Assembly (NCBI RefSeq): GCF_004403465.1
Contig: NZ_SOGQ01000077.1
Location: forward strand, 1 to 64,000
Direction: 5' to 3'
From: Cryobacterium sinapicolor
Lineage (GTDB): Bacteria > Actinomycetota > Actinomycetes > Actinomycetales > Microbacteriaceae
DNA length: 64,000 bases
Shown here: piece by piece, positions 36,495 to 57,986 of the stretch
Numbering within the stretch: position 1 is the stretch's first letter
How the letters are laid out: the number at the start of each line of letters is the position of its first letter
The notes under the pieces: generated by a model
The model's input: only the letters and a program-made list of their open reading frames with translations
The model's database searches: none
Told to the model about the DNA's origin: nothing
Program-made: the position numbers and the translations under genes

Positions 36495-36576
36495 CCACTT
36501 CGACGGAGAATTTCCCGAAAATGAGCTTTTTCCACCCATCTGTGTCCGATTTCGGAAAAATGTCCGTCGAATTCGT
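36495..36576. repeat. Dispersed palindromic element, copy 1
   Basis: About 82 bp with imperfect inverted arms: CTTCGACGGAGAATTTCCCG on the left and a near-complement ending TGTCCGTCGAATTCGT on the right. It shares its right arm and inner GTCCGATTTCGG with copy 2 (48011) and its arms with copy 3 (57904). It lies between divergent lepA and the hydrolase gene. Confidence 0.75.
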
Positions 36577-36666
36577 TCTCACGACTGCACCGAGCAACGG
36601 TTCCCGTGTGAGGCTCCCTCGGTACGGGCCACCTCTGTAATATCGCTGCTCATTGAGGAGGAATGA

Positions 36667-37413
36667 ATGACACCCGCCATCCCCGTTCTCTTCGTCCACG
36701 GGATCCGCACGTCGAGCACCATGTGGCGGCACCAGTTGTTCATGCTGGGCGAGACGGGGCATCCGGCGCTCGCGATCGATCTGCCGGGGCACGGCTCCCG
36801 CATGGACGAACCGTTCACCGTGGCGGGCGCCCTGGCCGCCATCGACGAAGGAGTCGACGCCCTGGGTGGCCGGGTGCTGTTGGTCGGACTGTCCTTGGGC
36901 GGCTACTACGCCATCGAGTACGCCGCACGCCACCCGCAGAAGGTGGCCGGGCTGGTCGCCGCGGGAAGCTGTGCGGTTCCCGCCGGCTGGCCGCTTGACG
37001 CCTACCGGGGACTGGCCCGGCTGATCCGCCGGCTGCCCGACCAGGGACTGTGGCTCCACACCACGCTCGTGCGAGTGCTCCTGCCACCGCACGGGGCCGC
37101 CGACACGCTCTCCGGTGGGGTACCGCTGGGCGTGATGGATGCCGGGCTCGGCGCCACCGGAACCCTCCGCCCGCTCGACAGCCTGGCACGCTATCCCGGA
37201 CCGGTGTGGCTGGTCAACGGTTCACTCGACCAGTTCCGGCTACATGAGCGACGTTTCCTCGCCGCCTGCCGGGACGGCCGCCTCGTGATCGTTCCCCGTG
37301 CGTCGCACCTCGTCAGCCTTGCCCAGCCGGAGCGGTTCGCGGCGGTGCTGCGCGGCATCCTCAAGGACATTGCCATCGACCGGCCGGGTCCGATTGTCGG
37401 CCTGAGCGAATAA
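36667..37413 (+). CDS. Alpha/beta-hydrolase
   Basis: A 248-residue serine hydrolase without signal peptide. The oxyanion region is FVHGIRTSS; the nucleophile elbow is GLSLGGYYA; the acid is probably Asp in NGSLDQF; and the histidine is in ASHLVS. The substrate is unknown; it could be an esterase or a C-C hydrolase. GAGGAGGA lies just before the ATG. It precedes rpsT by 118 bp and is probably separately transcribed. Confidence 0.88.
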   Translation: MTPAIPVLFVHGIRTSSTMWRHQLFMLGETGHPALAIDLPGHGSRMDEPFTVAGALAAIDEGVDALGGRVLLVGLSLGGYYAIEYAARHPQKVAGLVAAGSCAVPAGWPLDAYRGLARLIRRLPDQGLWLHTTLVRVLLPPHGAADTLSGGVPLGVMDAGLGATGTLRPLDSLARYPGPVWLVNGSLDQFRLHERRFLAACRDGRLVIVPRASHLVSLAQPERFAAVLRGILKDIAIDRPGPIVGLSE

Positions 37414-37425
37414 CTGGTATCGTTT
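37394..37425 (+). promoter_or_regulatory. Putative rpsT promoter
   Basis: TTGTCG and TATCGT spaced about 18 bp, beginning inside the hydrolase 3' end. A leader of roughly 100 bases before rpsT would leave room for control by the S20 protein, but I see no definable structure. Confidence 0.4.
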
Positions 37426-37531
37426 CCTGTTGGCTTGCGTGTTGGGTCCCACCCCACACGATTATTGCCGCACGGCGCCCTCTACCGCCAAGCGGCCCAT
37501 CCGAACAAGAACCTAACGAAAGCGTATAAAC

Positions 37532-37795
37532 GTGGCAAATATCAAGTCGCAGATCAAGCGTATCGGCACCAACAAGAAGGCCCAGGAGCGCAACAAGTCG
37601 GTCAAGAGCGAGTTCAAGCGCGCCGTCCGCGCGACGCGCCTCGCGATCGCCTCCGGCGACAAGGACAAGGCCGTCGCCAGCCTCGCCATTGCTTCGAAGA
37701 AGCTCGACAAGGCCGTCAGCAAGGGCGTCATCCACCAGAACCAGGCCGCGAACAAGAAGTCCGCGATCGCCAAGTCGGTCAACGCCCTCGTCTAG
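37532..37795 (+). CDS. rpsT: 30S ribosomal protein S20
   Basis: An 87-residue, Lys/Arg-rich helical protein beginning [20 protein letters not shown] and containing [16 protein letters not shown], diagnostic of S20. The start is GTG with a weak upstream binding site, common for this autoregulated gene. A terminator follows. Confidence 0.97.
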
Positions 37796-37850
37796 TCTCC
37801 GCCTGACCCGGCTCAGGACCCTTCACCGGCCCTGACCGGCGCACACAATC

Positions 37851-37876
37851 GCCCCCTCCGTTTCGGTGGGGGCTTT
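37851..37876 (+). terminator. Rho-independent terminator after rpsT
   Basis: GCCCCC-T-CCG and CGG-T-GGGGGC form a stem with a TTT loop, then TTTC. Outer CACAC/GTGTG can extend it. It lies 55 bp after rpsT. Confidence 0.8.
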
Positions 37877-37976
37877 CGTGTGTCCGGTCCTAGGCTCCAA
37901 ATGTTGCGGGAGGTGCTACCGGGTCGACAAGGAGCCGGCCTCTCCCTGACTCTTCGCCGATGATTCAGTCCTGTTC

Positions 37977-38314
37977 CTAGCTCGCCGAGTCATACCCGAA
38001 CTCGCGGAGCTCCTGCGAGCACCGGCAGGCCTGCGCGAGCTTCCTCGCCCACCCGACCGCGGCCTCCCGCGTGGGCAGCTCCAACACGGTGAACCCGCCC
38101 GTGAGGTCGCTCCCGGATAGAGATCCATACTCACCGTCCCGTCGGCGGAGACCAGGACAGGATCGATTCCCTCCTCGATTCCGCCACCGAACACATAGAC
38201 GCCAGCGGCCTTGGCCTCCTCGATCACCGCATGGGATTCCGCGACGGCGAGCGGGAAGTCATCATCGGTGAGCACCATGGCTTCACCAGGGAAGGAGATG
38301 AGGTATTTGGTCAT
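37977..38314 (-). pseudogene. YCII-family (DGPF-type) protein with a frameshift
   Basis: The first 68 residues (MTKYLISFPGEAMVLTDDDF...) fit the YCII/DGPF fold. In another frame the match continues as GSDLTGGFTVLELPTREAAV and ends at TAG (37977-37979). Restoring one G in the run at 38112-38114 (minus-strand CCGGG to CCGGGG) would join the halves to about 112 residues with the usual GGFTVLELP motif. So this is a single-base deletion, a sequencing error in a homopolymer, or a slip site. As sequenced, the first frame runs on to 37916 in an unrelated Arg/Ser-rich tail. Confidence 0.8.
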
Positions 38315-38419
38315 GTCTCGATGGTCCCCTCGGGCGGTCCGGACCGCAACGGGGAGTGCGAGAGGAAGACGTTGCCGTGCAGGTGCCGGAGCAGCTGACC
38401 TCAGCCGGGCCGAGCCCGG

Positions 38420-39502
38420 TCAGTTCTCACCCCGTCGGGCAATCACGCCGATGAGCCGCTCGAGGGCGAACACGGGGTCGCGCTCGGCACCCTTCACCGC
38501 GGCATCCGTCTCGGCCAGTGCCACGACGCAGCGGGCCAAACCCTCGTCGGTCCAGTTCCGCAGGTCGCGCTGGGCACGCTCGACCTGCCAGGGGGCGAGC
38601 CCGAACTGCGACGCCAGCTGGCCCGAGCCGCCGCGCGCCCCGCAGAGTTTCGCCATGGTGCGGATCTTCATAGCGAACGCGGCCACCACGGGGACCGGGT
38701 CCGCACCGGAGGACAGGGCGTGGCGCAGGATGACGAGCGCCTCACCCTGATGCCCGGCGATCGCCGCGTCGGCCACCTTGAACGCGTTGGCCTCGACCCG
38801 GCCACCGTAGTAGCGGTCCACGGTCGTCTCGGTCACCTCGGCGCCCACATCCGCGATGAGCTGTTGGCAGGCCGCGGAGAGTTCGGCCAGGTCGCCGGAG
38901 AACGCGGCGACCAGGGACCGCAGCGCGCTGGGCGTGACCCGCTTGCCGGCCGTCTTGAACTCGGCGGAGGCAAAGTCGTGGCGGTCGGAGTCCTTCTTCA
39001 ACTCGGCGCAGACGACCTCGATGCCGCCTCCGATGCCGGAGCGGATGGTGTCGAGCAGCTTCTTGCCGCGCACACCGCCGCCGTGCCGGAGCACCACGTA
39101 GGTGTCCTCGGCCGGGTTCTGCAGGTAGTCCAGGGCCTCCGCGAGGAAGGTATCGCTGCACTTCTCCACCGAGCTGACCCGGATCAGCCGCGGTTCGCCG
39201 AAGAGAGACGGGCTGGCCATGGTGAGTAGCTCGCCGGGCGCATAACTGTCTGCCTGCACGTCGCTGATCTCCAGGCTGGGGTCTTCGAGCTTGAGGAAGT
39301 CCCGCAGCTGGCGGATCGCACGCTCGGCCAGGAAGACCTCGGTTCCGGACACCAGGATGATCGGGGCCGGCCGCACCTGATGCCAGGCCAACTGCGGAAT
39401 GGCGGCCGTTTTCGGCGCGGCGCGGGGTGCGGCCCGGCCGGATGAGGCGGTTCGTGCGGCCACTCGGGGTTCCTTCGGTCGAGGCGGTGCAGGTTCTGTC
39501 AA
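38420..39502 (-). CDS. holA: DNA polymerase III subunit delta
   Basis: Clamp-loader subunit that opens the sliding clamp. The 360-residue protein has an Ala/Arg/Pro-rich N-terminal extension (about 1-40), then the RAP-like fold beginning ILVSGTEVFLAERAIRQLRD and C-terminal helices (VERAQRDLRNWTDEGLARCV). It starts 2 bases after the comEC stop, the standard comEC-holA order. Confidence 0.94.
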   Translation of the reverse strand: MTEPAPPRPKEPRVAARTASSGRAAPRAAPKTAAIPQLAWHQVRPAPIILVSGTEVFLAERAIRQLRDFLKLEDPSLEISDVQADSYAPGELLTMASPSLFGEPRLIRVSSVEKCSDTFLAEALDYLQNPAEDTYVVLRHGGGVRGKKLLDTIRSGIGGGIEVVCAELKKDSDRHDFASAEFKTAGKRVTPSALRSLVAAFSGDLAELSAACQQLIADVGAEVTETTVDRYYGGRVEANAFKVADAAIAGHQGEALVILRHALSSGADPVPVVAAFAMKIRTMAKLCGARGGSGQLASQFGLAPWQVERAQRDLRNWTDEGLARCVVALAETDAAVKGAERDPVFALERLIGVIARRGEN

Positions 39503-39504
39503 GA

Positions 39505-41988
39505 CTATCCGGGGCCGGCGACCGCCACGGTCTCGCCCCGCACGCTCTCGGTCCAGACCGTCAGCGCACCACCGCCCGGCCCCGGGGCGATCACGAGCAG
39601 CCCCTGCTGGTCGGTGCGGAAGGCCAGCGTGCCCACGGACCCGAGGATGTCCAGGATCGTGTCCGTGGGATGCCCGTAGCCGTTCTCCCGGCCGACGGAG
39701 ATCAGCCCCACCGTGGCCCGGAGATCGGCGTAGAGCGCCGGACTCTGGTCCCCCGACCCGTGGTGGGCGACCTTGACGACATCCACCGAGCCCGGACCAT
39801 CACGACGCCGGAGCGCGTCCTGGGACTCCTCGCCGAGATCTCCCAGGAAGAGGGAACGGATGCCCCGACCGTCGAACCCGATCGTCACGCTGCCCTCGTT
39901 GCCGGTCTGCATCACCGGCGAGCCCCGCACCGGCCAGAGGATCTCCCAGCGCAGCTCCCCGAGGGTGCCGGTGTCACCGCGGGCGGCCTCCCGGATCTCG
40001 GCCCCGCCCGCGGCAAGGGCATCGTGCAGGCGCTCATCGTCGGCATTCTCCGGGATGCCGACCAGAGCCGTGTCGACCCGGCCGATCACGGCGGAGACCC
40101 CGCCGATGTGGTCCAGGTCGTAGTGGGTCAACACGAGGATGTCGATCCGGTCGATGCCGAGCGTGTCTAGGCATTCGCTGAGGAGAACCGGGTCGGGCCC
40201 CACATCGACGAGCGCGTAGCGTTCACGGTCACGCACGACGATCGCGTCACCCTGCCCGATGTCGCAGGCGGCGATCTGCCAGTCCGCCGGAAACGCCACG
40301 GCCCGGCCGACGCCGGCTCCGATCAGGCTTCCGCCGTAGCTGCCGGTGGCCAGGACCAGAACCGCAATCGCCGCGATCGGCCAGTGCGCCCGGACCTGCC
40401 CCCGGCCGCGCAGCACCAACGCAACCACCGCCACGGTCAGCAGGACGGTCACGAGCATACCGATCGCGCCCCCCAGCCAGGGCAGACGGCTGCCGGGAAG
40501 CCCTGCGGACGTGCGGGCGATCGCCGCGATCCAGGCGGCTGGCAACCAAGCCAGGTAAAGCACTCCCCCGGCGACGCCGGGCAACCACGGCAGCAGCAGG
40601 CACGCGATCAGACCGATCACGGTGGCGGCCGGAGCCGCGGGACCGGCCAGCAGGTTCGCGGGCACCCCGTACAGCGGAAGGGTTGGGGTGAGCAGCACGA
40701 GCACCGGCTGGCAGGCCAGCTGTGCGGCCAGCGGGATGGCGATCACCGCAGCGAGCCAGGCGGGCAGCCAGCGGTGCAGCAGCCGGGTGAGCGGCGCGGC
40801 CAGTACGAGCAGGCCCGCCGTCGCGAGCACCGACAGGGCGAAGCCGTAGCTACGGGCCAGCCACGGGTCGGCCGCGAGCAGCAGAATCACGACGAGGGCG
40901 AGCAGCGGCACGCCTCGGCCCGGCCGCCCCGAGGCAATCCCGAGCAGCAGGATCGTGGCCATCAGGGCGGCGCGCAGCACGCTGGGTTCGGGTGTCACCA
41001 GCACGACGAACGCGAGCAGGGTGAGCAGCGAAATCCCGATCCGGATGCCGCGGCGCAGTCCCAGAAACCCAGTCAGGAGCATAACGCCCGCGATCACCAC
41101 GGCGCAGTTGGCCCCAGACACGGCTGTGAGGTGGCTGAGGGAACTCGTCTTCATCGCTTCATCCAGATCAGCCTCGACTGAACTCGTGTCGCCGATAGCC
41201 AGGCCGGGCAGCAGGTCGCCGCCGTCACCGGGCAGCTCCCCCGCGGCGGCCGTGAACAGGGTGCGCAGCTCCGCGGCCCAGCCGAGCCACCAGGGCGGCG
41301 TATCGACGAGCTCGGGCATTCCGCGCCCGAAGACCAGGGCGGACGCCGCATCCCCGGCCGCGGTGAGCCGGAGGGTGGCGTCCAGCCGCAGGACGCTGCC
41401 GATCTGGAGCGTCGCCGCCGTGTCCTGGGCGGCCTCTGCGAACACGACCACTGGAACCGACAGGCTCCGCAGAGTGCCGTTCCGCACGGCATCGTCCCGC
41501 ACAGCGTCGTCCCTGGCCGTATCGCCGCTGGCAGCCCCGCCCCGCTCGATCCCGGTCAGGATGCCGCGGAATCGCACCCGGGGAGATGCGCCGAGGTCGG
41601 TGTCGGAGTCGGCCCCTGCAGGGCCGAACAGGGTGGGCGCACCGAACGACTGCGTCTGCACCGGGATCGACGACACCGTGAGGAGCAGGGTCACGCCGGC
41701 TTGGCGGGCCGCTTCCTCCCGCACGGCGTCCGGCAACCGCCCCGGCGCGGCGACCGTGACGGCGGATGCCAGCAGCGCGGCCGCCGCGCAGCAGACCAGG
41801 AGCACTCCGCACACCGGTGCTCCCCAGGGCCGGACCAGACGCAGAGCCACGACCAGACCCACGCAGAGTGAAACGCTCCAGAGCGCGGCCTGCGCACCGG
41901 CCGCCCACTCGGGGACGGCAATGAGCAACCAGGCCGCCAGCCACGCGGCCGCCGCGGGGAGCACCAGGCGCAGGTCGAGCCCGGTCAT
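39505..41988 (-). CDS. comEC: ComEC/Rec2 DNA-uptake channel
   Basis: An 827-residue inner-membrane protein for single-stranded DNA import. It has N-terminal helices, an OB-like region, the Competence domain (SHLTAVSGANCAVVIAGVML and following helices) and a C-terminal metallo-beta-lactamase-like nuclease with LTHYDLDHIGG and VAHHGSGDQS. All metal-binding motifs look intact. comEA lies further upstream, but gene remnants intervene. Whether the organism is competent cannot be told here. Confidence 0.93.
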   Translation of the reverse strand: MTGLDLRLVLPAAAAWLAAWLLIAVPEWAAGAQAALWSVSLCVGLVVALRLVRPWGAPVCGVLLVCCAAAALLASAVTVAAPGRLPDAVREEAARQAGVTLLLTVSSIPVQTQSFGAPTLFGPAGADSDTDLGASPRVRFRGILTGIERGGAASGDTARDDAVRDDAVRNGTLRSLSVPVVVFAEAAQDTAATLQIGSVLRLDATLRLTAAGDAASALVFGRGMPELVDTPPWWLGWAAELRTLFTAAAGELPGDGGDLLPGLAIGDTSSVEADLDEAMKTSSLSHLTAVSGANCAVVIAGVMLLTGFLGLRRGIRIGISLLTLLAFVVLVTPEPSVLRAALMATILLLGIASGRPGRGVPLLALVVILLLAADPWLARSYGFALSVLATAGLLVLAAPLTRLLHRWLPAWLAAVIAIPLAAQLACQPVLVLLTPTLPLYGVPANLLAGPAAPAATVIGLIACLLLPWLPGVAGGVLYLAWLPAAWIAAIARTSAGLPGSRLPWLGGAIGMLVTVLLTVAVVALVLRGRGQVRAHWPIAAIAVLVLATGSYGGSLIGAGVGRAVAFPADWQIAACDIGQGDAIVVRDRERYALVDVGPDPVLLSECLDTLGIDRIDILVLTHYDLDHIGGVSAVIGRVDTALVGIPENADDERLHDALAAGGAEIREAARGDTGTLGELRWEILWPVRGSPVMQTGNEGSVTIGFDGRGIRSLFLGDLGEESQDALRRRDGPGSVDVVKVAHHGSGDQSPALYADLRATVGLISVGRENGYGHPTDTILDILGSVGTLAFRTDQQGLLVIAPGPGGGALTVWTESVRGETVAVAGPG

Positions 41989-42127
41989 GCCGTGATCCGC
42001 TGAGCGAATCCTGCAGCGGGGGGTCTGCGCGTCATACCGGGAGGCTAAGCGCGCCCGTGACTCTCCTCGGTTCCCTCCATGATCTGTGGGCCGTTCCCTC
42101 CGGCCCGTGGGTGGGGAGGCGTGCCCA

Positions 42128-42541
42128 CTATTCGAGGATGTCCTCTGCCAGCCGGTTCACGGCAGCCGTGCGGGTGTTCAGGAACGACACGCTGAACCCG
42201 GCAAGCAGCGCGCCGGCACCGCCCCAGACCACGTCTCCGATCGTGTCGACGTACCCGACGAAGATCTCCTCATCGATGAACGTGTGGCCGAACCACTCGA
42301 AAATCTCCCAGAGCACTCCGAGAGCCAGGCTCAACGAGGTTGTCATCACGACGGCCGAGAGCATCAGTCGTGGGAGGGTCACGGCGTCGGCCAGGACTCC
42401 GAGCCTCACCGACAGGAGGTAGCACAGCGCGGCGCAGAGCCCGTTGGTGAGGAAGTGCATCGGAAGGTCCCACCGCCGGATCGAGGTGCAGATCTGCAGC
42501 ACGCTGCGCCACACGGCCAGGAGAACCATCTCCGGAGGCAC
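42128..42541 (-). pseudogene. Truncated multispanning membrane protein (DUF2238/YjdF-like)
   Basis: The reading frame gives 137 residues with three or four hydrophobic segments and the motif GVLWEIFEWFGHTFID followed by GYVDTIGDVVWGGAGALLAG, which resembles YjdF/DUF2238 proteins. The family is longer at the N-terminus; here the frame opens with a GTG inside what should be a middle helix and is directly preceded by a fragment of an unrelated gene. I read it as a 5'-truncated remnant, though a short functional protein is not excluded. Confidence 0.6.
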
Positions 42542-42544
42542 TGC

Positions 42545-42794
42545 GCCCGTGACCGACCCACCGGTTGTGCGATCCGAGCGTGTCCGCGACGAAGTCGACC
42601 TGGTCGGCCGGCGCCTCCTGCACGCCGTGGAGTGTCGGCTGCTCGGCGGTGAGGAGACGCCGCACGAGCTGCTTCCGGGTGCCCCAATGATCGGGGCTCC
42701 CCGGCCGCAGCGGTGTCCGGCGCCGACGGATGTTGTTCGTCATCATGTGCAGGTCAGGGGCGTTCACCGGACCGATCAGAGTGCCATCCGTCAT
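42545..42794 (-). pseudogene. 5' fragment of an endonuclease/exonuclease/phosphatase-family gene
   Basis: From ATG at 42794 the frame reads NAPDLHMMTNNIRRRRTPL and later TLHGVQEAPADQVDFVADTL and NRWVGHGRSASG, the N-terminal third of an EEP-superfamily hydrolase (the VQE glutamate binds metal). After about residue 83 the match stops and the frame enters the membrane-protein remnant. The catalytic C-terminal two thirds are missing, consistent with a deletion that fused two genes. It explains most of the 42542-42866 gap. Confidence 0.65.
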
Positions 42795-42866
42795 GCCGCA
42801 CAGAGTACGATCGCCGCTCCTAATTGGCGCCGCTCCGATTCGCCGGACGAATCCGATCGCCCGCGC

Positions 42867-46382: not shown

Positions 46383-47918
46383 CTAAACCTGGCCCTGGCC
46401 CGTTGCGGGGCCGGGTAGGTGAACACCGAGCACGGCCAGGAGCGCCGCCGCTTTCAGCCGGGTCTCCTCGATCTCCTCCAGCGGATCGGACAGGGCCGTG
46501 ATGCCGCCCCCCGTGCCGATGGAAGCCCCGTCCGGGCCGAGAACGATGCTGCGGATGACCATGGCCAGGTCGACGGCGCCGTCCTGCCCGAAATAGCCGA
46601 AGGCACCGGCGTAGAGCCCGCGCGGGCCGTCCTCGAATGCGTCGAGAATGGTCATCGCACTGATCTTGGGGGCTCCGGTCATGGAACCGGCCGGGAACGA
46701 GGATTCGACGACATCCACCCCGGTCAGCCCCGCGGCCAGGCGCGCCTCGACCGTGCTGACCAGCTGGTGCACATGCGCGTAACTCTCCACGGCGAGAAGG
46801 GTCGTGACCTGGACGCTGCCGAGCTCGGCGATCCGGCCGAGGTCGTTGCGCATGAGATCGACGATCATCAGGTTCTCGGCGCGTTCCTTCTCGCTGGCCT
46901 CGAGTTCGTCGCGGAGTTCCTGGTCGCGCACGACGCCGGTGGACCGGGCGCGTGTTCCCTTGATCGGTTTGGTGGTGATCCGGCCGTCAACCGTCACGGC
47001 CAGAAATTCCTCGGGCGAGGCGCTGAGCAGTGCGGTGTCCCCGAAGCGCAGGAACCCGCCGTGGTGGCTGGGGCTGCCGGCACGCAGGGCCAGGTAGGTG
47101 TCGACCGGGTGCGGTCGCACGTCGACCTGGATCTCGTTGGTGAGGCAGAGCTGATAGGCGTCGCCGGCCCGGATGCTGGCCTGGCAGTCTGCGATGAGCT
47201 CGGCGTATCGGTGCGCATCGTGCCGCCACCGGGCCGCGACGGTGCCGGCGGTGTCGGTATCGGCGGTGCCGGTGTCGGTATCGGCGGTGCCGGTGCCGCG
47301 GAATAACTGCAGGACAGGCCGGGTCACGGCTACGGCCGGTGACGACTCCGACCCGGCGAGAGAGTGCTGCACGGCGTCGGCCCACGCCTGCGGGGCATCC
47401 GTCGGGTCGCCGGGGGCGCAACGGGCGAGGGCGGTGACCGTGCGCGCAGCGTGATCGAACACGAGGACCCGGTGCACCTCGAGCAGGGCGGCATCCGGGT
47501 GGCGCGAGGCGTGCACGGGCGTGCCCACGGTCTGGGCACCGAGTTCGTAGCCGAGCCAGCCCACCCAGCCGAGGCGGAAGCCGCCGGTGCCGCCGGCCGG
47601 ACTGCTGTCGGTGCCGACCCTGGAATCGTCGGTGGAGCCGGCCAGGTCCGCGCGCAGGAACTCGAAGATCGTCCCGGGCGAGGCGAAACCAGACCCCGAT
47701 GGGTTCCCGGCGGCCGAGACCGTCACGGTCCCCTCCGGTACCGAGGCGATCGCGAACCGGGACCCGGACGACGCCGCCCCGAGGTAGCTGAGGCCGGTTG
47801 CAGCGCCGTCTCCGGCATCCAGCCAGAACGCGTACGGGCTGTCACGGTACAGGGTGTCGAAAACGGTGACCGGGTCCCACCACTCGGTGAGGAGGATGCG
47901 CTGAATCGGCCCGGTCAC
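46383..47918 (-). CDS. pabB: Aminodeoxychorismate synthase component I
   Basis: Converts chorismate and ammonia to 4-amino-4-deoxychorismate for folate. The 511-residue chorismate-binding enzyme carries PIKGTRARS (Lys in this position marks PabB; TrpE has Ala), ENLMIVDLMRNDLGR and SFPAGSMTGAPK. An internal linker with a Thr/Asp repeat (about 213-228) is coded by a 21-bp duplication. No pabA or pabC is adjacent; the glutaminase may be shared with trpG elsewhere. Confidence 0.92.
   Translation of the reverse strand: MTGPIQRILLTEWWDPVTVFDTLYRDSPYAFWLDAGDGAATGLSYLGAASSGSRFAIASVPEGTVTVSAAGNPSGSGFASPGTIFEFLRADLAGSTDDSRVGTDSSPAGGTGGFRLGWVGWLGYELGAQTVGTPVHASRHPDAALLEVHRVLVFDHAARTVTALARCAPGDPTDAPQAWADAVQHSLAGSESSPAVAVTRPVLQLFRGTGTADTDTGTADTDTAGTVAARWRHDAHRYAELIADCQASIRAGDAYQLCLTNEIQVDVRPHPVDTYLALRAGSPSHHGGFLRFGDTALLSASPEEFLAVTVDGRITTKPIKGTRARSTGVVRDQELRDELEASEKERAENLMIVDLMRNDLGRIAELGSVQVTTLLAVESYAHVHQLVSTVEARLAAGLTGVDVVESSFPAGSMTGAPKISAMTILDAFEDGPRGLYAGAFGYFGQDGAVDLAMVIRSIVLGPDGASIGTGGGITALSDPLEEIEETRLKAAALLAVLGVHLPGPATGQGQV
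47250..47291. repeat. 21-bp perfect tandem duplication inside pabB
   Basis: GGTGTCGGTATCGGCGGTGC-C is repeated exactly at 47250-47270 and 47271-47291. It is in frame and encodes two copies of a seven-residue Asp/Thr/Ala/Gly unit in a surface-like linker. Confidence 0.85.
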
Positions 47919-48010
47919 GCTCCCAGCCTAGATGCCACTATTCTCCCCGGAGTGCAGCACCCCGCCGCCCCGCCGAGACCCCTTCCGCACACCGTGACCG
48001 GCTCCGAACC

Positions 48011-48087
48011 AATTCGACGGAGATTCTTGCGAAAATCGGCTGTTCCGGGTTGATCGGGTCCGATTTCGGCAAAATCTCCGTCGAATT
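48011..48087. repeat. Dispersed palindromic element, copy 2
   Basis: Left arm AATTCGACGGAGATTCTTGC and right arm the near-complement ending AAATCTCCGTCGAATT, with inner GTCCGATTTCGGC. It lies 92 bp upstream of the pabB start and 40 bp after the M28 peptidase stop (both minus strand). Confidence 0.85.
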
Positions 48088-48126
48088 CGTCAGGACGGAG
48101 GCGCCTGGAGCTGTGACAGAGTGCTA

Positions 48127-49638
48127 CTACTTCGTGGCGTGGCTGCCTTTGAACTGAAGGTCCATGGTGCCGGAGCCGCCGCCCCTGGTCGTGCCGTTGA
48201 CCGCGGAGGTAGTCTCTCCGAAGGTCTTTGTCGCGTGGGCGATGGCATCGGCCATCTGCTCCAGCACCACCGCGTTGATGTTCGTGATGTCGTCACACGC
48301 GGCGTGGTAGCAGGCGTCGTACGGCGCGCCGGCGACTCCGCCGTAGGTGACCGCCTGGGCATCCGTCATCAGGTCTTCCGCACCGGTGAAGAGCCCACCG
48401 GCCGGAATCCCGTTCTCGATGAACCCGAAGTAGTCGGACCGACCGTCGAACTCGGTGGGTTCCACGGCCAGCCCCTGCGAGGCGAAGTAGTCCAGGAAGA
48501 CCTTCTCCACCCGCGCCGACCCGTTCGGGCCGGTGGTGCCGAAGGACGAGCCGTCACCGTCATAGACGAAGCGCACGAAGTTGGGCGAGGCGACCATGTC
48601 GAAGTTCAGGTTGACGGCGTGCTCCTTGATCTGGCGTTTCGTCAGCTGCGACACGTAGTACTCGGAACCGACCAGGCCGTCTTCCTCGCTTCCCCAGAAC
48701 GCGAACCGCACCCGGTTGGTGGGCGCGTCGCCGGAGGCGGCGAGCTGGATGGCCGTTTCGAGGATGGCGGCACTGCCGCTGCCGTTGTCGTTGATTCCCG
48801 CGCCCTCGGCGACGGAGTCGAGGTGCGCCCCGGCCACGACCGTGCGGTCCGCCCGACCGGCCGTGTCGGCCAGGATGTTGAAGGATTCGGTCACGATGAC
48901 CTCGGCGTCCACGGCCAGGCGCACAGACGGGGCCGGCTGCCCGGCCAGAGCCTCGCCGAGCGCGAAGCTCGTTCCGATCACCGGCACGGATGCCTGCGGG
49001 GCGTCGAGCGTGCCGTTGAGGAGGCCGAGGCGGTCGTCGGCGTTGCCCTGATTGAAGATGATCACGCCGGCGGCGCCGGCCGCGATGGCATTCTCGGCCT
49101 TGACCTGGAAGGTGCAGGTGCCGCGCTGGATCAACGCGACGTTCCCGGGTGTGAAGCCGGCGAAGTCCGCGGCTTCGCAGCCGCTGGTCGAGGCCCGGTC
49201 GCCCCCCAGGTTGATGTCGACCGCCTGCACCGTCGCGTCGACCAGCCCGGAGCCGGAATAGCTCATCGTGGCGAAGTCGGTTCCGCCCAGGTAGGTGGTG
49301 GGGGTGGGGGCGAGCTGCGCGAACGATTCCGCGTTCATCACGAACTGTTCATAGGAGTAGGGCTGCCGGGTCGGCGTGTACCCCGCGGCCCTGAGCTGCT
49401 CTTCGACGTACACGGCGGATGCCTCGTACCCGGGAGTACCGGATGCCCGCGTGCCGCCGTGGGCATCCGCGATGTCCTGCAGAGCCTGCAGGTGCTCGAT
49501 GATTCCGGACGCGGTGACGGCTTCGCGCAGCGCGCCGGTGCCCGTTCCGTTGTCGGCATGGGCAGGCAGCCCGACGCTGACGGACAGCGCCACGGCTGTG
49601 CCGATGGCGGCCAGACGAATATTCCGATTCTGTGTCAT
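48127..49638 (-). CDS. Secreted M28-family aminopeptidase with PA domain
   Basis: A 503-residue exported zinc peptidase. The signal peptide ends near SVGLPAHADN; an inserted PA domain (about 115-230, with NVALIQRGTCTFQVKAENAI) and the M28 catalytic domain follow. Metal ligands and the general base are in AGAHLDSV, INDNGSGSA, WGSEEDGLVGS, DMVASP and the C-terminal CYHAACDD. It probably trims peptides outside the cell, possibly supplying the peptide importer encoded elsewhere in this window; the link is speculative. Confidence 0.93.
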   Translation of the reverse strand: MTQNRNIRLAAIGTAVALSVSVGLPAHADNGTGTGALREAVTASGIIEHLQALQDIADAHGGTRASGTPGYEASAVYVEEQLRAAGYTPTRQPYSYEQFVMNAESFAQLAPTPTTYLGGTDFATMSYSGSGLVDATVQAVDINLGGDRASTSGCEAADFAGFTPGNVALIQRGTCTFQVKAENAIAAGAAGVIIFNQGNADDRLGLLNGTLDAPQASVPVIGTSFALGEALAGQPAPSVRLAVDAEVIVTESFNILADTAGRADRTVVAGAHLDSVAEGAGINDNGSGSAAILETAIQLAASGDAPTNRVRFAFWGSEEDGLVGSEYYVSQLTKRQIKEHAVNLNFDMVASPNFVRFVYDGDGSSFGTTGPNGSARVEKVFLDYFASQGLAVEPTEFDGRSDYFGFIENGIPAGGLFTGAEDLMTDAQAVTYGGVAGAPYDACYHAACDDITNINAVVLEQMADAIAHATKTFGETTSAVNGTTRGGGSGTMDLQFKGSHATK

Positions 49639-50431: not shown

Positions 50432-50455
50432 CCACTCACGGCGGGGCGGCTTCAT

Positions 50456-52208: not shown

Positions 52209-53856
52209 GGGCCACCTCGTTCAGGGCAACGATCTGGTCGGCGGCGTCCCGCAGCGCGGGCCGGTGGCTGACCACGATCACCATCCGCCCCTGGTCGGTG
52301 AGCCGGCGCAGCCCGGCCACGAGGGAAGCTTCCGCCGCCTCGTCCAAGGCCGAACTGGGCTCGTCGAGAACGATCACGGCACAGTCGTGCGCCTCGGCAC
52401 GGTAGATCGCGCGCGCGGCGGCCACCCGCTGAGCCTGCCCGCCGGAGAGCCCCGAGCCGGCGACGCCGAGCACGGTGGCCGGGTCGAGGTCGGCGGCTCC
52501 GGCGCATTCCAGCGCCCGCGTCACGGTCTCCGGGTCGACGGATGCGTCGCCGAGCGCAAGGTTGTCGGCGATCGTCCCATGGAACAGTCCCGGCCGTTGC
52601 CCCGCCCACGCCAGCCAGGGGCGAGGTGTGCCCGGAGTCTGCTCGGCACCATTCAGCCGGATCCGCCCGTCGAAGGGGACGAATCCCTGCAGGGCGGCCA
52701 CCAGTGTGGATTTTCCGGCGCCGCTCGGACCAACGACCACGGTGAGTTCGCCGGGGCGGAACACGGCGGTGAAGTCGTGCACCGGGGCATCCGTGCCGCG
52801 CCGAATCGTGACCTGCTCGAACCGTAGCTCGCCGGCATCCGCGGGGCCCTGACCGGGGTGAGCGGCCGAGGCAGCCGGGGCGGACGCGATGACGGCCGCG
52901 GCCCCGGCGTCGTCGAGAATGGCGAAGACCTCGGCCGCGGCGGCCAGGCCGTCGGCCGCGGCGTGGAATTGGGCGCCGACCTGGCGCACCGGCAAGAATG
53001 CCTCCGGGGCCAGCAGCAGCACGAACAGGCCGACGCCGAGCGCGAGGGTGCCGTCGACCAGGCGCAGGCCGATGGAGACGGCGACGAGGGCGACCGACAG
53101 GCTGGCCGCCAGCTCGAGCACGAAACCACTGAGGAAGGAGACCCGCAGCACCGTCATGGTGCGGGCGCGGTAGTCCTCGGTGATGGCGCGTACCCGGGCG
53201 AACTGGCGACGGTCCCGGCCGTAGATCTTGAGCGTGCCGAGCCCGCCGACGAGGTCGAGGAACCCCGTCGACAGCCGCTGCAGGGACTCCCACTGCTGGT
53301 GCTGCACGGACTGGGTGGCCTTGCCGATCAGCACCATGAAGATCGGAATGAACGGCAGCACCACGATGACCGTGATGCCGCTGGGCAGGTCCTGCCCAAG
53401 CATCACCAGGATCAGCAGGGGCGTGCTGATCGCCGCCAGCAGGAGCTGGGGCAGGTAGCGGGCGAAGTAGTTGTCGAGCGCGTCGAGCCCCTGGGTGACC
53501 AGGGTGGAGACGCCGGCGCCGGCCCGGCCGCTGATCCAGTCCGGGCCGCGCTCGGCGACGCGGTCGAGCACCTGGCGGCGCAGCTGGCTCTTGACCTGGG
53601 CTGCCCCGCGGGTGGCGGCCACCTCGAGCAGCCAGACCAGCGCGGCCCGGACCACGATCACCCCCGCAAGGGCGGCGGTGGTCGAGGCGAGGTCGGCCCG
53701 CGACGCCCCCGTCACCGCGAGGGTGATGCTCTGGCTCAATAGCCAGGAGAACGTGATGACCGTGACGGTCTGCGCCAGTCCAAGCAGGGCACCCACCGAC
53801 AGGAACCACCGGGCGGCGCTCGCATAGCGGAGGAGCCGAGGATCGAATGGGCGCAT
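52201..53856 (-). CDS. cydD: Heterodimeric ABC exporter CydD
   Basis: A 551-residue half-exporter: six membrane helices (first at about 17-45) and an ATPase domain with GPSGAGKSTL, LSGGQAQRVAAARAI, VIVLDEPSSALD and VSHRPAL. The sequence through TQGLDALDNYFARYLPQL is typical of CydD. It is encoded after cydB and overlaps cydC. Confidence 0.94.
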   Translation of the reverse strand: MRPFDPRLLRYASAARWFLSVGALLGLAQTVTVITFSWLLSQSITLAVTGASRADLASTTAALAGVIVVRAALVWLLEVAATRGAAQVKSQLRRQVLDRVAERGPDWISGRAGAGVSTLVTQGLDALDNYFARYLPQLLLAAISTPLLILVMLGQDLPSGITVIVVLPFIPIFMVLIGKATQSVQHQQWESLQRLSTGFLDLVGGLGTLKIYGRDRRQFARVRAITEDYRARTMTVLRVSFLSGFVLELAASLSVALVAVSIGLRLVDGTLALGVGLFVLLLAPEAFLPVRQVGAQFHAAADGLAAAAEVFAILDDAGAAAVIASAPAASAAHPGQGPADAGELRFEQVTIRRGTDAPVHDFTAVFRPGELTVVVGPSGAGKSTLVAALQGFVPFDGRIRLNGAEQTPGTPRPWLAWAGQRPGLFHGTIADNLALGDASVDPETVTRALECAGAADLDPATVLGVAGSGLSGGQAQRVAAARAIYRAEAHDCAVIVLDEPSSALDEAAEASLVAGLRRLTDQGRMVIVVSHRPALRDAADQIVALNEVAHV

Positions 53857-53862
53857 TTACAT

Positions 53863-54882
53863 TCAGTGTACGGCGGACTCTACGTCGGCCGAGACGGTCG
53901 TGCGACTGACCCGCTTGCGCAGCACCCAGTAGGTCCAGCCCTGGTAGAGGAGGATCACCGGCATGGCGAACAGGGCGGTCCAGCTCATCACCTGCAGCGT
54001 GTACGGCGTCGAGGACGCGTTTTCGATGGTCAGGCTATTCGCCGCGTCATTGCTGGCCGGCATCACGTCGGGGAACAGGGAGGCGAAGAGCGTCAGCACC
54101 GCGAGGGCGATGGTCGCGGCCATCAGCGTGAACGCCCATCCCTCGGACCCGCGCAGGTTCGCCAGGAACGCCCCGATCAGGGCGACGGCGGCGAGCACGG
54201 CGAAGGCTGCGGTGGCCAGGCTGCCGAAGGCGAGGGTGGTCCAGACCAGGAATGAGGCGGCCACCACGATGGTGACGATCCCGGCCTTGACGGCCAGCTT
54301 CTGGGCGCGCTGACGGATGTCCCCCTCGGTCTTCAGGGAGATGAAGATCACGCCGTGGGTGAAGAACAGGAGCAGCGTGGTGAGGCCGCCGAGGAGGGCG
54401 TAGGGATTGAGCAGGTCGAAGAAGGAGCCGATGTAGTTGTGGCCGGCATCCAGGGGCACGCCCTGCACGATGTTGGAGAAGGCGACACCCCAGAGCAGGG
54501 CGGGAACCGCGGACCCGATCACGATCATCAGGTCGAAGCGCTTCTTCCACGCCGCCTCTGGGCGCTGATGCCGGTACTCGAACGACACCCCGCGCAGGAT
54601 AAGGGCAAGCAGGATCACGAGCAGGGCCAGGTAGAAGCCGCTGAACAGGGTGGCGTACCACTCCGGGAACGCGGCGAACAGGGCCGCGCCGGCCACGATC
54701 AACCAGGTTTCGTTGAGGTCCCAGACCGGCCCGATGGTGTTGATGATGACCCGGCGGTCGAGGTCGTCCTTGCCGAGGAAGGGCAGGGACATGCCGACGC
54801 CGAAGTCGAAGCCGTCGAGAACGAAGTAGCCGATGAAGAGTGCACCGATGATCCAGAACCAGAGAATGTTGAGTTCCATCAT
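53863..54882 (-). CDS. cydB: Cytochrome bd oxidase subunit II
   Basis: A 339-residue membrane subunit with eight or nine helices, beginning MELNILWFWIIGALFIGYFV and carrying GFDFGVGMSLPFLGKDD and RRVIINTIGPVWDLNETWLI, diagnostic of CydB. It forms the structural partner of CydA. It starts 6 bases after the cydA stop. Confidence 0.96.
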   Translation of the reverse strand: MMELNILWFWIIGALFIGYFVLDGFDFGVGMSLPFLGKDDLDRRVIINTIGPVWDLNETWLIVAGAALFAAFPEWYATLFSGFYLALLVILLALILRGVSFEYRHQRPEAAWKKRFDLMIVIGSAVPALLWGVAFSNIVQGVPLDAGHNYIGSFFDLLNPYALLGGLTTLLLFFTHGVIFISLKTEGDIRQRAQKLAVKAGIVTIVVAASFLVWTTLAFGSLATAAFAVLAAVALIGAFLANLRGSEGWAFTLMAATIALAVLTLFASLFPDVMPASNDAANSLTIENASSTPYTLQVMSWTALFAMPVILLYQGWTYWVLRKRVSRTTVSADVESAVH

Positions 54883-54888
54883 GCGCTC

Positions 54889-56301
54889 CTAGTAGACCGT
54901 GACCTGTGGCTTGACCCTGCCGGACACCGGGTCGGGTTCCGCCAGCGGGGCCGGTCCCTGCCGCACGGCCTGCAGGATCAACTTGAATTCGACGACGGCG
55001 AGAGCGCCGTAGATCAGCGTGAACGCGATCAGTGAGATCAGGATCTCGACGCCGCTGACATTGGGTGACACGCCGTCCTGGGTGCGCAGGAGGCCGAACA
55101 CGAGCCAGGGCTGCCGGCCCATCTCGGTGAAGATCCAGCCGACGCTCATCGCGAGCAGGGAGAACGGGAAGCTCCAAATGGCGATCTTCCAGACCCAGGT
55201 GGCCTCCGGGCTGCGCCCATTCCGGGTCAACCAGAGGCCGACCACGGCGACGAGGATGTGCGCGATGCCGAGACCGATCATCCAGCGGAAAGCCCAGTAG
55301 GTGATCCAGATCGTCGGCGTGTAGTCCCCGGGGCCGTACAGGGTGACGTACTGCGCCTGCAGGTTGTCGATGCCCTCGACGGTGCCGTTGAGGGTGTGGG
55401 TCGACAGGAAGGACAGCAGGTAGGGGATGCGAATCGAGAACAACTCGCTCACGCCGTCGGGGGTGCCGAGGGTGAAGATCGAGAAGGATGCCTCGGCGCC
55501 CGTCGCGGTCTTGTACATCGCCTCGGCCGCCGCCATCTTCATGGGCTGGGCCGCGGTCATGGCGAGGCTGAGCGAGTCGCCGAAGAAGGTGGTGAGCGCC
55601 CCGGAGACGACCATCATCCACATGCCCAGCTTGAGCGCGGGACGCATGGTGTCCTCGTTCTGCCTGCGCAGCAGGTGCCAGGCCGCCACCGAGATGACGA
55701 GGCCCGACGACACCATGAAGCAGGCGAAGATCGTGTGCGGGAAGGAGGCCAGCGCGATCGGGTTGGTCAGGAGTTCACCGATGCTGGTCAACTCGGCCCG
55801 GCCGCGCTCCTCGTTGATGCGGAACGCGATCGGGTTCTGCATGAACGCGTTCGCCGCGAGGATGAAGTAGGCCGAGGCGATCGAGCCGGCCGTGGTCAGC
55901 CAGATGGTGGCCAGGTGCAGGCCGCGGGGCAGTTTGTCCCAGCCGAAGATCCACAGTCCGATGAAGGTGGCCTCCAAGAAGAAGGCGGTGATGCCCTCGA
56001 AGGCGAGCGGGGCGCCGAACACGTCGCCAACGAAGCGGGAGTAGTCCGACCAGTTCATCCCGAACTGGAACTCCTGCACGATTCCGGTAACGACGCCCAT
56101 GGCGAAGTTGATCAGGAAAATCTTGCCGAAGAAGTGGGTCAGCTGAAGGTATTTGGCCTTGTCGGTGCGCACCCAGGCGGTCTGGAAGAGCGCCACCGTG
56201 AATGCCAGCCCGATCGTGAGCGGCACGAAGAGGAAGTGGTAGACGGTGGTCAGACCGAATTGCCATCTTGACAGGAGTAACGGATCCAGCCACTCGTACA
56301 T
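54889..56301 (-). CDS. cydA: Cytochrome bd oxidase subunit I
   Basis: The heme b558/b595/d and quinol-binding subunit of the oxygen-scavenging terminal oxidase. The 470 residues contain RWQFGLTTVYHFLFVPLTIG (heme-ligand His near 19-25), the GRQPW motif in MGRQPWLVFGLLRTQDGVSP and about nine helices. The length suggests the short Q-loop form. GGAGG is just before the ATG at 56301; a GTG 18 bases earlier is less likely. Upstream lie two BlaI-type operators. Confidence 0.95.
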   Translation of the reverse strand: MYEWLDPLLLSRWQFGLTTVYHFLFVPLTIGLAFTVALFQTAWVRTDKAKYLQLTHFFGKIFLINFAMGVVTGIVQEFQFGMNWSDYSRFVGDVFGAPLAFEGITAFFLEATFIGLWIFGWDKLPRGLHLATIWLTTAGSIASAYFILAANAFMQNPIAFRINEERGRAELTSIGELLTNPIALASFPHTIFACFMVSSGLVISVAAWHLLRRQNEDTMRPALKLGMWMMVVSGALTTFFGDSLSLAMTAAQPMKMAAAEAMYKTATGAEASFSIFTLGTPDGVSELFSIRIPYLLSFLSTHTLNGTVEGIDNLQAQYVTLYGPGDYTPTIWITYWAFRWMIGLGIAHILVAVVGLWLTRNGRSPEATWVWKIAIWSFPFSLLAMSVGWIFTEMGRQPWLVFGLLRTQDGVSPNVSGVEILISLIAFTLIYGALAVVEFKLILQAVRQGPAPLAEPDPVSGRVKPQVTVY

Positions 56302-56324
56302 GCGCCCTCCAGCGTCCACGGATT

Positions 56325-56341
56325 TTCTACACTATGTAGAA
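56325..56341. promoter_or_regulatory. Operator 1 in the cydA-blaI intergenic region
   Basis: TTCTAC-ACTAT-GTAGAA, a perfect 6-bp dyad with a 5-bp spacer, in the 96-bp gap between divergent cydA and the BlaI-type gene. CTAC-N5-GTAG resembles BlaI/MecI/CopY-family sites. It lies where bound repressor would cover the cydA promoter. Confidence 0.8.
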
Positions 56342-56345
56342 TATT

Positions 56346-56370
56346 ACTCTTCTACGAGACGTAGAAGAGT
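56346..56370. promoter_or_regulatory. Operator 2 in the cydA-blaI intergenic region
   Basis: ACTCTTCTAC-GAGAC-GTAGAAGAGT, a perfect 10-bp dyad with a 5-bp spacer. Its centre is 25 bp from that of operator 1. It covers the expected -35 region of the BlaI-type gene, whose -10 is TAGACT (56385-56390). Confidence 0.82.
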
Positions 56371-56397
56371 CGATTCCCGCCCGCTAGACTCCCCACT

Positions 56398-56784
56398 ATG
56401 GGGCGATTGGGTGTACTCGAGAGACTGCTGATGGATGTCCTGTGGGACACCGAGGAGCCTCTCCCTGCCAACGACCTCCGGGACCGGCTGCTCACCCCGA
56501 CGGCCGCGACCGCCCGGCACAAACCACTCGCCACCACGACCGTGCTCACGGTGCTCTCCCGCCTCGAGGCCAAGGGCTTCGTCACCCGGGACCGGGACAT
56601 CCGGCCGCACCGCTACCGGGCCGTGGCGACCCGGGCCGAGCACACCGCGGAGCTGATGCACGAGGTGCTCGGTTCGGCGCCCGACCGGCAGGCGGCTCTC
56701 GCCCGGTTCATCGGCGACGTCACCCCGCAGGAGGCCGACGCCCTGCGCGTGCTCCTCGGCACTGCGCCGCTCGTTCGCGAGTGA
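56398..56784 (+). CDS. BlaI/MecI/CopY-family repressor
   Basis: A 128-residue winged-helix regulator (GRLGVLERLLMDVLWDTEEP, then TTVLTVLSRLEAKGFVTRDR) with a C-terminal dimerisation helix. In known systems a partner membrane peptidase cleaves such repressors. The ATG is 7 bases from TAGACT, so the mRNA is probably leaderless. Two CTAC-N5-GTAG dyads lie upstream, shared with cydA. I infer that it represses itself and the cyd operon. Confidence 0.93.
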   Translation: MGRLGVLERLLMDVLWDTEEPLPANDLRDRLLTPTAATARHKPLATTTVLTVLSRLEAKGFVTRDRDIRPHRYRAVATRAEHTAELMHEVLGSAPDRQAALARFIGDVTPQEADALRVLLGTAPLVRE

Positions 56785-56839
56785 CCGGCACCCTGTCCCG
56801 GTCCCCGCATCAGACAGCGCGAACCGGAATGGTCAAGTC

Positions 56840-57778
56840 GTGTTCGGCACTGCCGTAGCGCTCATGGTCGTCGCCGTTCTGCTGGCCGGTCCGGTTCCGA
56901 TCTGGTTGGCCCAGGCCGGATGGCCGTCCCGCTCCCCCGCGATCGCCCTGGTGCTGTGGCAGTCCTTCGCCCTGGCGGGCGGGCTCTCGATGATCGGCTC
57001 ACTGCTCAGCTTCGGACTGATCCCGTTCGGCGAGAACCTGCTCGACGGCATCCGTTCGTTGGCCGGCCATCTCTTCACCGGCACTCTGCCGGCCGGCACA
57101 TCGTTCGGCAGCGTGCTCATGCTGTGCGCGGCGCTGATCCTCGGCAGTCATTTGCTGCTCAACCTCGCCGCGACCTTGTCCCGCGCCCAGCGCCAGCACC
57201 GCCGGCACCGGCACCTGATCGGGCTGCTCAGCGAGCCTCTGCCCCACCATTCGGGCACCCTTGTGATCGAGCACGACGCACCGGTCGCCTACTGCCTGCC
57301 CGGCGCGACCCGGTCGGCGACCGTACTCTCCCGCGGCCTCCTGCAGCTGCTGGACGCGGACCAGCTGCGCGGGGTGATCGCGCACGAACGCGCCCACCTG
57401 CTGCAGCAGCACCACCTCGTGCTGCTCGCCTTCAAGTCCTGGCACAGCGCGCTGCCGTGGTTCCCGATCGCCAATCGCGCCGAGAACGCGGTGGCCCTCC
57501 TGATCGAGATGCTGGCCGACGACCAGGCCCGGCGCGTTATCGACGACCGCACGCTGGCCACCGCGATCGCGCTGGTCGGGTCGGCCCACCAGGTGGACCT
57601 GCTGGGAACGGATGTCGAACTCGCCGACGGCCCGGACCATCCGTTCGACCTCGTGACACCCCGCGTTCGCAGGCTGATCACCCCGCAGGCGCCCCTGCCG
57701 CGCTCCGCCGCGCCTATCGCCTCGGCGGCAGCAGCCGCGCTTCTGCTGCTGCCGACGCTGCTCCTGTTCCTGACCTGA
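56840..57778 (+). CDS. M56-family membrane metallopeptidase (BlaR1/MecR1-like)
   Basis: A 312-residue protein with three N-terminal helices, a soluble zinc-peptidase domain with HERAH (H-E-x-x-H) near residue 190 and ADD further on, and a C-terminal helix. It lacks the extracellular penicillin-sensing domain of BlaR1, so beta-lactams are unlikely as signal. It starts with GTG 55 bp after the repressor gene and is presumably its sensor-protease; the signal is unknown. The stop is inside a tandem repeat. Confidence 0.87.
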   Translation: MFGTAVALMVVAVLLAGPVPIWLAQAGWPSRSPAIALVLWQSFALAGGLSMIGSLLSFGLIPFGENLLDGIRSLAGHLFTGTLPAGTSFGSVLMLCAALILGSHLLLNLAATLSRAQRQHRRHRHLIGLLSEPLPHHSGTLVIEHDAPVAYCLPGATRSATVLSRGLLQLLDADQLRGVIAHERAHLLQQHHLVLLAFKSWHSALPWFPIANRAENAVALLIEMLADDQARRVIDDRTLATAIALVGSAHQVDLLGTDVELADGPDHPFDLVTPRVRRLITPQAPLPRSAAPIASAAAAALLLLPTLLLFLT

Positions 57779-57877
57779 CCCGGCCTGACCTGGCCTGACC
57801 CGGCCTGACCCGGCCTGACCTGACCTGACCCGGCCTGACCCGGCCTGACCTGACCTGACCCGGCCTGACCTGACCCC
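57769..57877. repeat. CTGACC-based tandem repeat across the M56 peptidase stop
   Basis: Fourteen CTGACC units spaced 5 or 10 bp in a roughly 109-bp tract, e.g. CCTGACCCGG units. The first two units hold the stop codon of the peptidase gene. It is followed by palindromic element copy 3. Open frames reading through it (GQVRPGQ-type) are spurious. Confidence 0.9.
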
Positions 57878-57903
57878 GGCCCAGGCCCAGCCCCCAGCCC
57901 CCA

Positions 57904-57986
57904 ACGAATTCGACGGAGATTTTCGGTCCCAGGGCCTGTTTTGCCCTGCAACCGGCCCGCAGGCGCAAAATCTCCGTCGAATTCGT
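57904..57986. repeat. Dispersed palindromic element, copy 3 (perfect arms)
   Basis: ACGAATTCGACGGAGATTTT at 57904-57923 and its exact complement at 57967-57986 enclose a 43-bp centre unlike the centres of copies 1 and 2. It lies between convergent genes (M56 peptidase and the osmoprotectant binding protein). Confidence 0.92.

Follow-up and report, generated by a model that had tools for sequence, protein, structure and literature searches.

What are the three palindromic repeats of about 80 bp that stand between genes in a 64,000-nucleotide stretch of the Cryobacterium sinapicolor genome (contig NZ_SOGQ01000077.1, positions 1 to 64,000; hereafter the window)? The initial annotation, made from the letters alone, offered three options, namely mobile elements of the miniature inverted-repeat transposable element (MITE) or repetitive extragenic palindrome (REP) kind, RNA-processing hairpins and protein-binding sites. 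Comparative analysis shows that the genome of this glacier bacterium and those of some relatives hold as many as a hundred or so copies of an 85-bp element, in which nearly invariant inverted arms enclose a 43-bp middle of variable sequence, and that this middle appears to be kept for its helical phase and length rather than for its letters. Judged from sequence, the protein-binding site fits best among the three options, and the phased centre is a new addition to it.

Anatomy and copy number of the element

The element consists of inverted arms, AACGAATTCGACGGAGATTTTG, around the 43-bp middle. Numbered from the first A of AATT, the consensus reads AAC(G/C)AATTCGACGGAGATTTTG, followed by 43 bp of variable centre and then by the inverse; the inverted terminal arms recognized at the outset at about 20 bp are nearer 22 bp long and are continued by a weak extension of about 5 bp. 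In the C. sinapicolor genome (3.53 Mb in 96 contigs), 118 copies have at most 3 mismatches in 26 arm positions and 43 free bases between the arms, against none in a backwards control. The three copies reported in the window are accordingly real, and the prospect that only these three existed, with no conservation in relatives, is removed by this number and by the copies in other genera described below. By hand count, 46 of the 118 are exact in all 26 positions, as are the inner arms of copy 3 of the window; a BLAST search of the same genome with copy 3 returned 75 matches (E up to 0.001), in which one element was often hit on each of its strands.

The spacing is nearly fixed. Among 44 own-genome copies (the BLAST matches to copy 3 plus the window copies), the AATT-to-AATT span was 77 bp in 43 and 76 bp in one, with 47 to 126 bp allowed. 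The same length recurred in 173 of 177 matches in the loci studied (158 of 162 distinct ones; 60 to 79 bp allowed, inner part), and 148 of 152 gaps under 100 bp measured 43 bp; the public loci in these counts were picked, among the matches listed, for exact arms at 43-bp spacing, such that their arm identity and spacing are partly a result of selection and their centre sequence is free of it. In 78 loci there are 93 full copies, namely 79 of the exact kind by which loci were selected and 14 others, with 3 truncated copies beside the 14; the usual length is found in 12 of these 14, the other 2 being longer by 1 bp. The arms are conserved, because an 18-position core search of the own genome found 113 copies with at most one mismatch and a second mismatch added just 6, giving 119. 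Across copies the arms are nearly invariant and the centres variable; the centres of the window copies do differ in their letters, as first described, but across the family they have length and A/T phasing in common.

Helical phasing of the centre

Taken over 67 centres that share less than 60% identity with one another, A/T power has its maximum at 10.2 bp, with a value of 1.345, against 0.238 (standard deviation 0.029) after shuffling within rows; profile and phase counts cover copies of the usual length, leaving out a 76-bp copy at locus L029 and copies of other lengths. The A/T-rich blocks of these centres lie at about positions 22–25, 33–35, 43–46 and 53–56, are symmetric about position 39 and run in step with the A/T blocks of the arms at 13–17 and 61–65. 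At a given position A runs and T runs both occur, which is what readout through the minor groove would allow. Phase-coherent power is 1.35 in the centre, 0.004 in the flanks (counted for copies lying far enough from the locus end) and 0.001 in shuffles, and 98% of 158 distinct centres exceed the 95th percentile of the shuffles. The profile recurs in a genome of another genus, G163, analysed through 50 listed copies out of 65 that were chosen by arms and spacing alone: its correlation with the Cryobacterium profile is r = 0.957, and 5-bp slides turn this to −0.76 and −0.74.

The resulting DNA signal, with A/T every 10 bp or so, offset from G/C and symmetric about a G/C-rich dyad, is the one expected of nucleosome-positioning sequences, a likeness that concerns the DNA only. 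A/T blocks placed some ±5, ±15 and ±24 bp away from a G/C dyad turn their minor grooves towards a protein core round which the DNA is wrapped. Archaeal nucleosomal DNA, about 60 bp long, has A/T dinucleotides at 10-bp intervals, G/C shifted from them by 5 bp, and a G/C-rich centre (PMC3691661). The Cryobacterium case resembles it in the 10-bp A/T pattern, the G/C centre and the length of about 60 bp, but is a discrete bacterial element, whereas the archaeal pattern is statistical and genome-wide, with no specific arms in the description drawn on here.

The phase persists at sites shared with other genomes. By BLAST of the flanks, an own locus was paired with another locus, both flanks matching, in 36 cases, and the element stands at the same place in 35 of them, a share inflated by the choice of loci for holding an element. 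Centres in ortholog pairs differ at 0 to 29 of 43 positions, the zero being the own genome against itself (one self-pair, L061, is included). Scored on the G163 profile, 70 distinct ortholog pairs show no fall of the phase score with divergence (Spearman 0.02), the means being 0.486, 0.524, 0.479 and 0.473 at 0–10, 11–17, 18–23 and at least 24 differences, respectively; simulated mutation cuts the score to 0.368 at 8 sites and to 0.278 at 13.

A proposed protein-held duplex and its alternatives

We hypothesize that the element is a duplex DNA site held at both arms by a putative specific protein, with the middle bent or wrapped, a reading that we put first tentatively and stop short of calling probable. 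It sets out from what is directly observed, namely the copy number, near-fixed spacing, arm conservation, phasing with its persistence and a bias in genomic context; the protein, the wrapping and the role are what we infer. As a dimer or higher oligomer, the putative protein would bind the two inverted arms of about 22 bp, and the 43-bp middle, with A/T minor grooves one helical turn apart and favouring wrapping much as a nucleosome-positioning sequence does, would bend or wrap such that the arms are brought together. There would be about 118 such sites in the genome, those examined being nearly always intergenic and more often at the 3′ ends of genes, and our guess at the most likely role would be local chromosome architecture or control of supercoil or transcription-unit boundaries. 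On the doubtful side lies the more specific proposal of a bacterial 'micro-nucleosome' site dispersed over the chromosome, in which the protein would clamp the two arms with the DNA between them in one tight turn, selection would act on phase and length and not on the letters, and arm specificity would co-evolve with the protein across the Microbacteriaceae.

The context bias is apparent from 152 copies with callable neighbours (simple gene finder), of which 84 lie in tandem, 51 in convergent and 17 in divergent gaps; a predicted gene end is overlapped by more than 20 bp in 9 of the 152. Gaps of 90–1500 bp with and without an element number 53 and 31 when convergent, 16 and 98 when divergent, and 87 and 181 when tandem, giving a convergent-to-divergent odds ratio for element presence of 10.5; as the loci are centred on elements, the contrast between classes is meaningful and the fractions are not. 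Copies in tandem gaps stand a median of 40 bp from the upstream stop and 104 bp from the downstream start.

Several observations weigh against a duplex site. The neighbouring genes have no common theme, with none of the first 25 of 177 Pfam families matching more than 4 of 86 neighbour proteins. Related centres occur at different sites of the own genome (26 of 903 pairs at an identity of at least 0.65, against 2 to 11 in 20 block permutations). In ortholog pairs, change of A/T class was compared between phased and unphased positions with a Fisher p of 0.53 (33 pairs), the class-keeping share of changes is lower in centres (0.31) than in flank alignments (0.45), and some of the strongly diverged 'orthologs' may have arisen by separate insertions into one location. 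The fold energy of the 67 Cryobacterium elements is −22.13, against −21.01 (standard deviation 0.35) with column-permuted centres, a control that breaks the A and T runs. The clearest sign of pairing is in G163, where mirrored complementarity is 0.471 against 0.440 (3 of 300 shuffles reach 0.471) and fold energy is −23.71 against −22.50 and −22.30 in two sets of block permutations, 0 of 30 being as low in either. In Cryobacterium, pairing is weak or absent on the other measures: mirrored complementarity of the centres is 0.361 against 0.357 in column shuffles; block permutations of the 67 elements give −21.81 (4 of 30 as low) and, for halves, −21.76 (1 of 30), and in 43 own-genome copies 4 and 9 of 30 block-permuted controls are as low. 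The phase is common to Cryobacterium and G163 and the pairing is clear in G163 only, which lowers our confidence in the duplex reading and does not overturn it.

The strongest rival, which we regard as possible and, on balance, not probable, is a miniature mobile element of the REPIN or MITE kind moved by a putative transposase, for which the arms would be kept, and so would the phased centre, hairpin-forming in G163, as ends so close together could be paired only by bending or extrusion of the DNA between; this and the duplex site are not mutually exclusive. REPINs, REP doublets that form hairpins, are described as having inverted conserved ends at a perfectly fixed distance, a less conserved spacer and an extragenic location; one genome holds 101 doublets of a single group (Bertels and Rainey, 2011; PMC3116915). 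As far as that description goes, they are the nearest known kind: the conserved inverted ends at fixed distance, the variable spacer, the hundred or so extragenic copies, the dispersal and, in G163, the spacer fold are all shared, but the Cryobacterium element has a spacer phased at 10.2 bp, pairing that is weak or absent, and no detected Y1 (RAYT) transposase. The Y1 domain (PF01797, E up to 0.001) was found in 0 of 57 Cryobacterium genomes, a few of them incomplete, in a search that did not extend to a DDE transposase with the same ends genome-wide, and in 0 of 12 genomes of other genera with a match to our sequence model R1, several of which have just a few weak matches; a control search of 14 named genomes detected it in 5. 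Because the Y1 transposase was not found and the evidence for a spacer hairpin is mixed, we consider the element REPIN-like in layout and do not class it as a REPIN; the MITE/REP option of the initial annotation gains from architecture, copy number and placement and loses on the transposase. If the element is mobile, it would represent REPIN-like elements without the REPIN transposase. GTAG- and CGTC-tagged REPs, short intergenic palindromic stem-loops of 20–40 bp that favour tandem or convergent gaps, include a CGTC type without a dedicated transposase (Di Nocera, 2013; PMC3733652); the present element is likewise a short intergenic palindrome found mostly in such gaps, but those stem-loops are shorter, no phased spacer appears in the description of them drawn on here, and the main text of that paper does not contain the word 'Actinobacteria'.

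Copies do disperse, because related centres stand at different sites and a centre subfamily recurs in two genomes. In G050 (locus L051) and G044 (L048), a centre (GCCCGGAAAGCGCTT...) is common to many copies, and one of the arms is often AAAAACTCC (both by eye), which suggests recent spread of one form. Presence and absence at one site point the same way: in a gap near clpP compared in 30 genomes, the element is found in five (G000, G024, G025, G056 and G026, the last with a different outer arm; G025 and G056 by eye) and is missing from G042, G008 and G039, which carry elements elsewhere. Sites are gained or lost between species and occasionally copied. No target-site duplication was recognized at this single site compared, where the flanks have diverged too far for the ends of the element to be placed.

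Mobility is further disfavoured by the persistence of phase in diverged same-site copies, by the lack of a match on viral contigs (to the exact core) or plasmids (to copy 3), and by the scarcity of debris. In 624 kb searched with the family model, 186 of 196 rows score at least 50 bits, and the 5 places at 18–41 bits comprise 3 truncated copies and 2 members of a second type of palindrome (see below); among copies that brought in no locus, 14 are full, each with at most 2 arm mismatches, against 3 truncated, and decayed copies are accordingly few. Unpaired arm-like stretches number 15 at up to 4 mismatches in 997 kb, of which three within 1 mismatch read as truncated copies, a count that does not cover a whole-genome search for a larger element with the same ends. 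The rare truncated copies, at L034:5040, L102:7176, L144:240 and L121:7734, are cut inside or before one arm.

A hairpin in the RNA of 3′ untranslated regions, acting in processing, stability or termination, is an improbable explanation. The arms could form a stem of 17–22 bp, the tandem-gap copies lie closer to the upstream stop than to the downstream start, and the G163 centres fold better than their controls. However, at arm positions 1–17 of 158 copies, many of them selected for exact inner arms, 72 changes are one-sided, against 9 double changes that compensate and 7 that do not. Positions 0 and 78, within the would-be stem, vary independently (GG 49, CC 40, GC 40, CG 15, other 14; n = 158). 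Imperfect arms in the window had been read as changed on both sides; copy 1 does differ from the consensus at positions 2, 14 and 66, but none of these changes is compensatory, as partners sum to 78. The folding of Cryobacterium centres stays near that of block-permuted controls, the 10.2-bp phase belongs to duplex DNA, 17 of the 152 copies stand between divergent genes, and, by eye, genomes with the element and genomes without it alike have a separate terminator-like hairpin at the clpP site. The RNA-processing option is thus disfavoured in Cryobacterium by the one-sided arm changes and weak centre pairing, and retains some support from the G163 centres, which pair beyond controls.

The more particular idea that the element is itself a terminator was rejected, the clpP site having its own terminator-like hairpin beside it (by eye, 30 genomes). 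A terminator consensus scan at copies 2 and 3 found none.

Positive supercoils gather between convergent genes, where the elements are frequent, and strong DNA gyrase sites like BIME-2 of Escherichia coli are a last, very improbable alternative. The E. coli gyrase motif, as described, spans 130 bp, with 47-bp flanks phased at 10.75 bp around a 36-bp cleavage core, and BIME-2 repeats are gyrase sites that lie between genes (PMC6379681). The likeness is in the helical phasing of G/C content and in intergenic repeats to which a DNA-wrapping enzyme binds, but the element is phased in its middle and unphased outside, a layout different from that of the gyrase motif, and its conserved arms of 22 bp do not figure in the motif in that account.

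Distribution, lineage-specific arms and the window copies

The arm pattern is present in 19 of 57 Cryobacterium genomes, the top four having 118, 118, 117 and 76 copies; with the 18-position core and 2 mismatches allowed, 38 of the 57 have at least one match, many with one or two, some of the second type. The exact-arm public matches taken as loci are all from Cryobacterium, among the matches listed. Within the Microbacteriaceae, model R1 has matches in 18 of 299 genomes and 11 of 85 genera (E up to 0.001, at most 15 candidates scored per genome), although single weak matches in other genera are not all convincing and the one at L166 resembles coding sequence; 12 of 398 genomes, from 9 of 85 genera, contain the exact core GGAGATTYT-N43-ARAATCTCC, with 0 in the control. 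Outside the family, the core with up to 1 mismatch was found in 0 of 274 genomes of the order, the same search matching 2 of 297 genomes, both Cryobacterium. An origin from a phage or plasmid was rejected on the viral-contig and plasmid searches given above.

In this high-copy element the arms differ by lineage. G163 has 65 copies with AAACGACGGAGATT arms, a pattern found elsewhere in G064 (9 copies), G193 (3) and G386 (1) and not in G172 or G319. By eye, both sides of the outer arm have changed together in G163, G234, G286, G345, G379 and G244 and only partly in G301, G172 and G386; the Cryobacterium arm holds CGAATTCG, which is absent from the arms of other genera, and no small hairpin with a tag was seen inside the latter. 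Joint change of the two sides fits the duplex reading, and a difference of outer arms between clades would also suit a mobile element. If the protein of the duplex reading is found, the 118 or so sites here and the 65 in at least one other genus would form a natural replicated system for bacterial DNA clamping and bending and would show how the members of a scattered site family evolve together with the protein that reads them. One copy, at L058 in G037, combines a Cryobacterium-type arm (AATTCGACGG) with a G163-type arm (AAAACGACGG) and is possibly an evolutionary intermediate.

A second, related palindrome has the same GGAGATTYT-like ends and core spacing together with a conserved centre (CGCGACACGCCG ... 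GGATGCC ...), and its outer arms are not always symmetric. It occurs in several genera and in Cryobacterium (L067:7509-7571, L120:7062-7125, L185, L162, L167 and L173, and 18-position-core matches in G044 and G056).

The literature search found no description of the element: 13 letters of the arm returned one paper only, on Leishmania, within the text searched, and a Cryobacterium genome paper (PMC7381226) uses 'palindromic' for CRISPR only in the excerpts seen.

Within the window, the family model (E up to 10) has as its sole matches 36493-36577, 48007-48090 and 57903-57986, and the same three copies top the list of inverted repeats. Their coordinates and those of their neighbours are collected below; the divergent, co-directional and convergent settings assigned to them at first were right, according to the simple gene finder and Pfam. 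Rfam, above its gathering score, gives two tRNAs in the window and nothing at the elements.

Table 1. The three window copies of the element and the genes beside them (positions in the window; neighbours named from Pfam).
Feature	Position	Strand	Remarks
Copy 1, full element (arms + 43-bp middle)	36493..36577	.	55.3 bits, E 3e-16; divergent genes; most diverged of the three
Copy 1, left arm	36493..36514	+	
Copy 1, variable 43-bp centre	36514..36556	.	
Copy 1, right arm, inverted	36556..36577	-	
Copy 2, full element	48007..48091	.	66.8 bits, E 7.5e-20; co-directional genes
Copy 2, variable 43-bp centre	48028..48070	.	
Copy 3, full element	57903..57987	.	65 bits, E 2.7e-19; convergent genes
Copy 3, variable 43-bp centre	57924..57966	.	
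Copy 1 neighbour: LepA-type GTPase	34449..36293	-	EF-Tu GTPase + LepA_C domains
Copy 1 neighbour: alpha/beta hydrolase	36667..37410	+	
Copy 2 neighbour: anthranilate synthase component I family	46386..47918	-	chorismate-binding enzyme
Copy 2 neighbour: M28 peptidase	48130..49638	-	
Copy 3 neighbour: M48 peptidase	56840..57775	+	
Copy 3 neighbour: glycine-betaine-type substrate-binding protein	58033..58956	-	OpuAC

The idea that the elements mark a regulon was rejected, given that no Pfam family, among the same first 25 of 177, matches more than 4 of the 86 neighbour proteins. At L047, two copies (3014 and 3965) with centres 79% identical bracket a small acetyltransferase gene; the pair stands between genes for adenylosuccinate synthetase and an EamA transporter, and two copies are found at the matching place in L084 (C. 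shii). Three own-genome copies (G000:C81:875, C89:2138 and C94:694) have identical or near-identical centres and lie in the first 1–2 kb of their contigs; as a guess, what they flank may be a multi-copy region, for example an rRNA operon. Finally, short tandem repeats of the GCTCGAC, CCTGACC and GGATGCCGTGAAC types stand near copies 1 and 3 (window 36400-36460 and 57800-57880) and near the copy at L158 (from about 1360).

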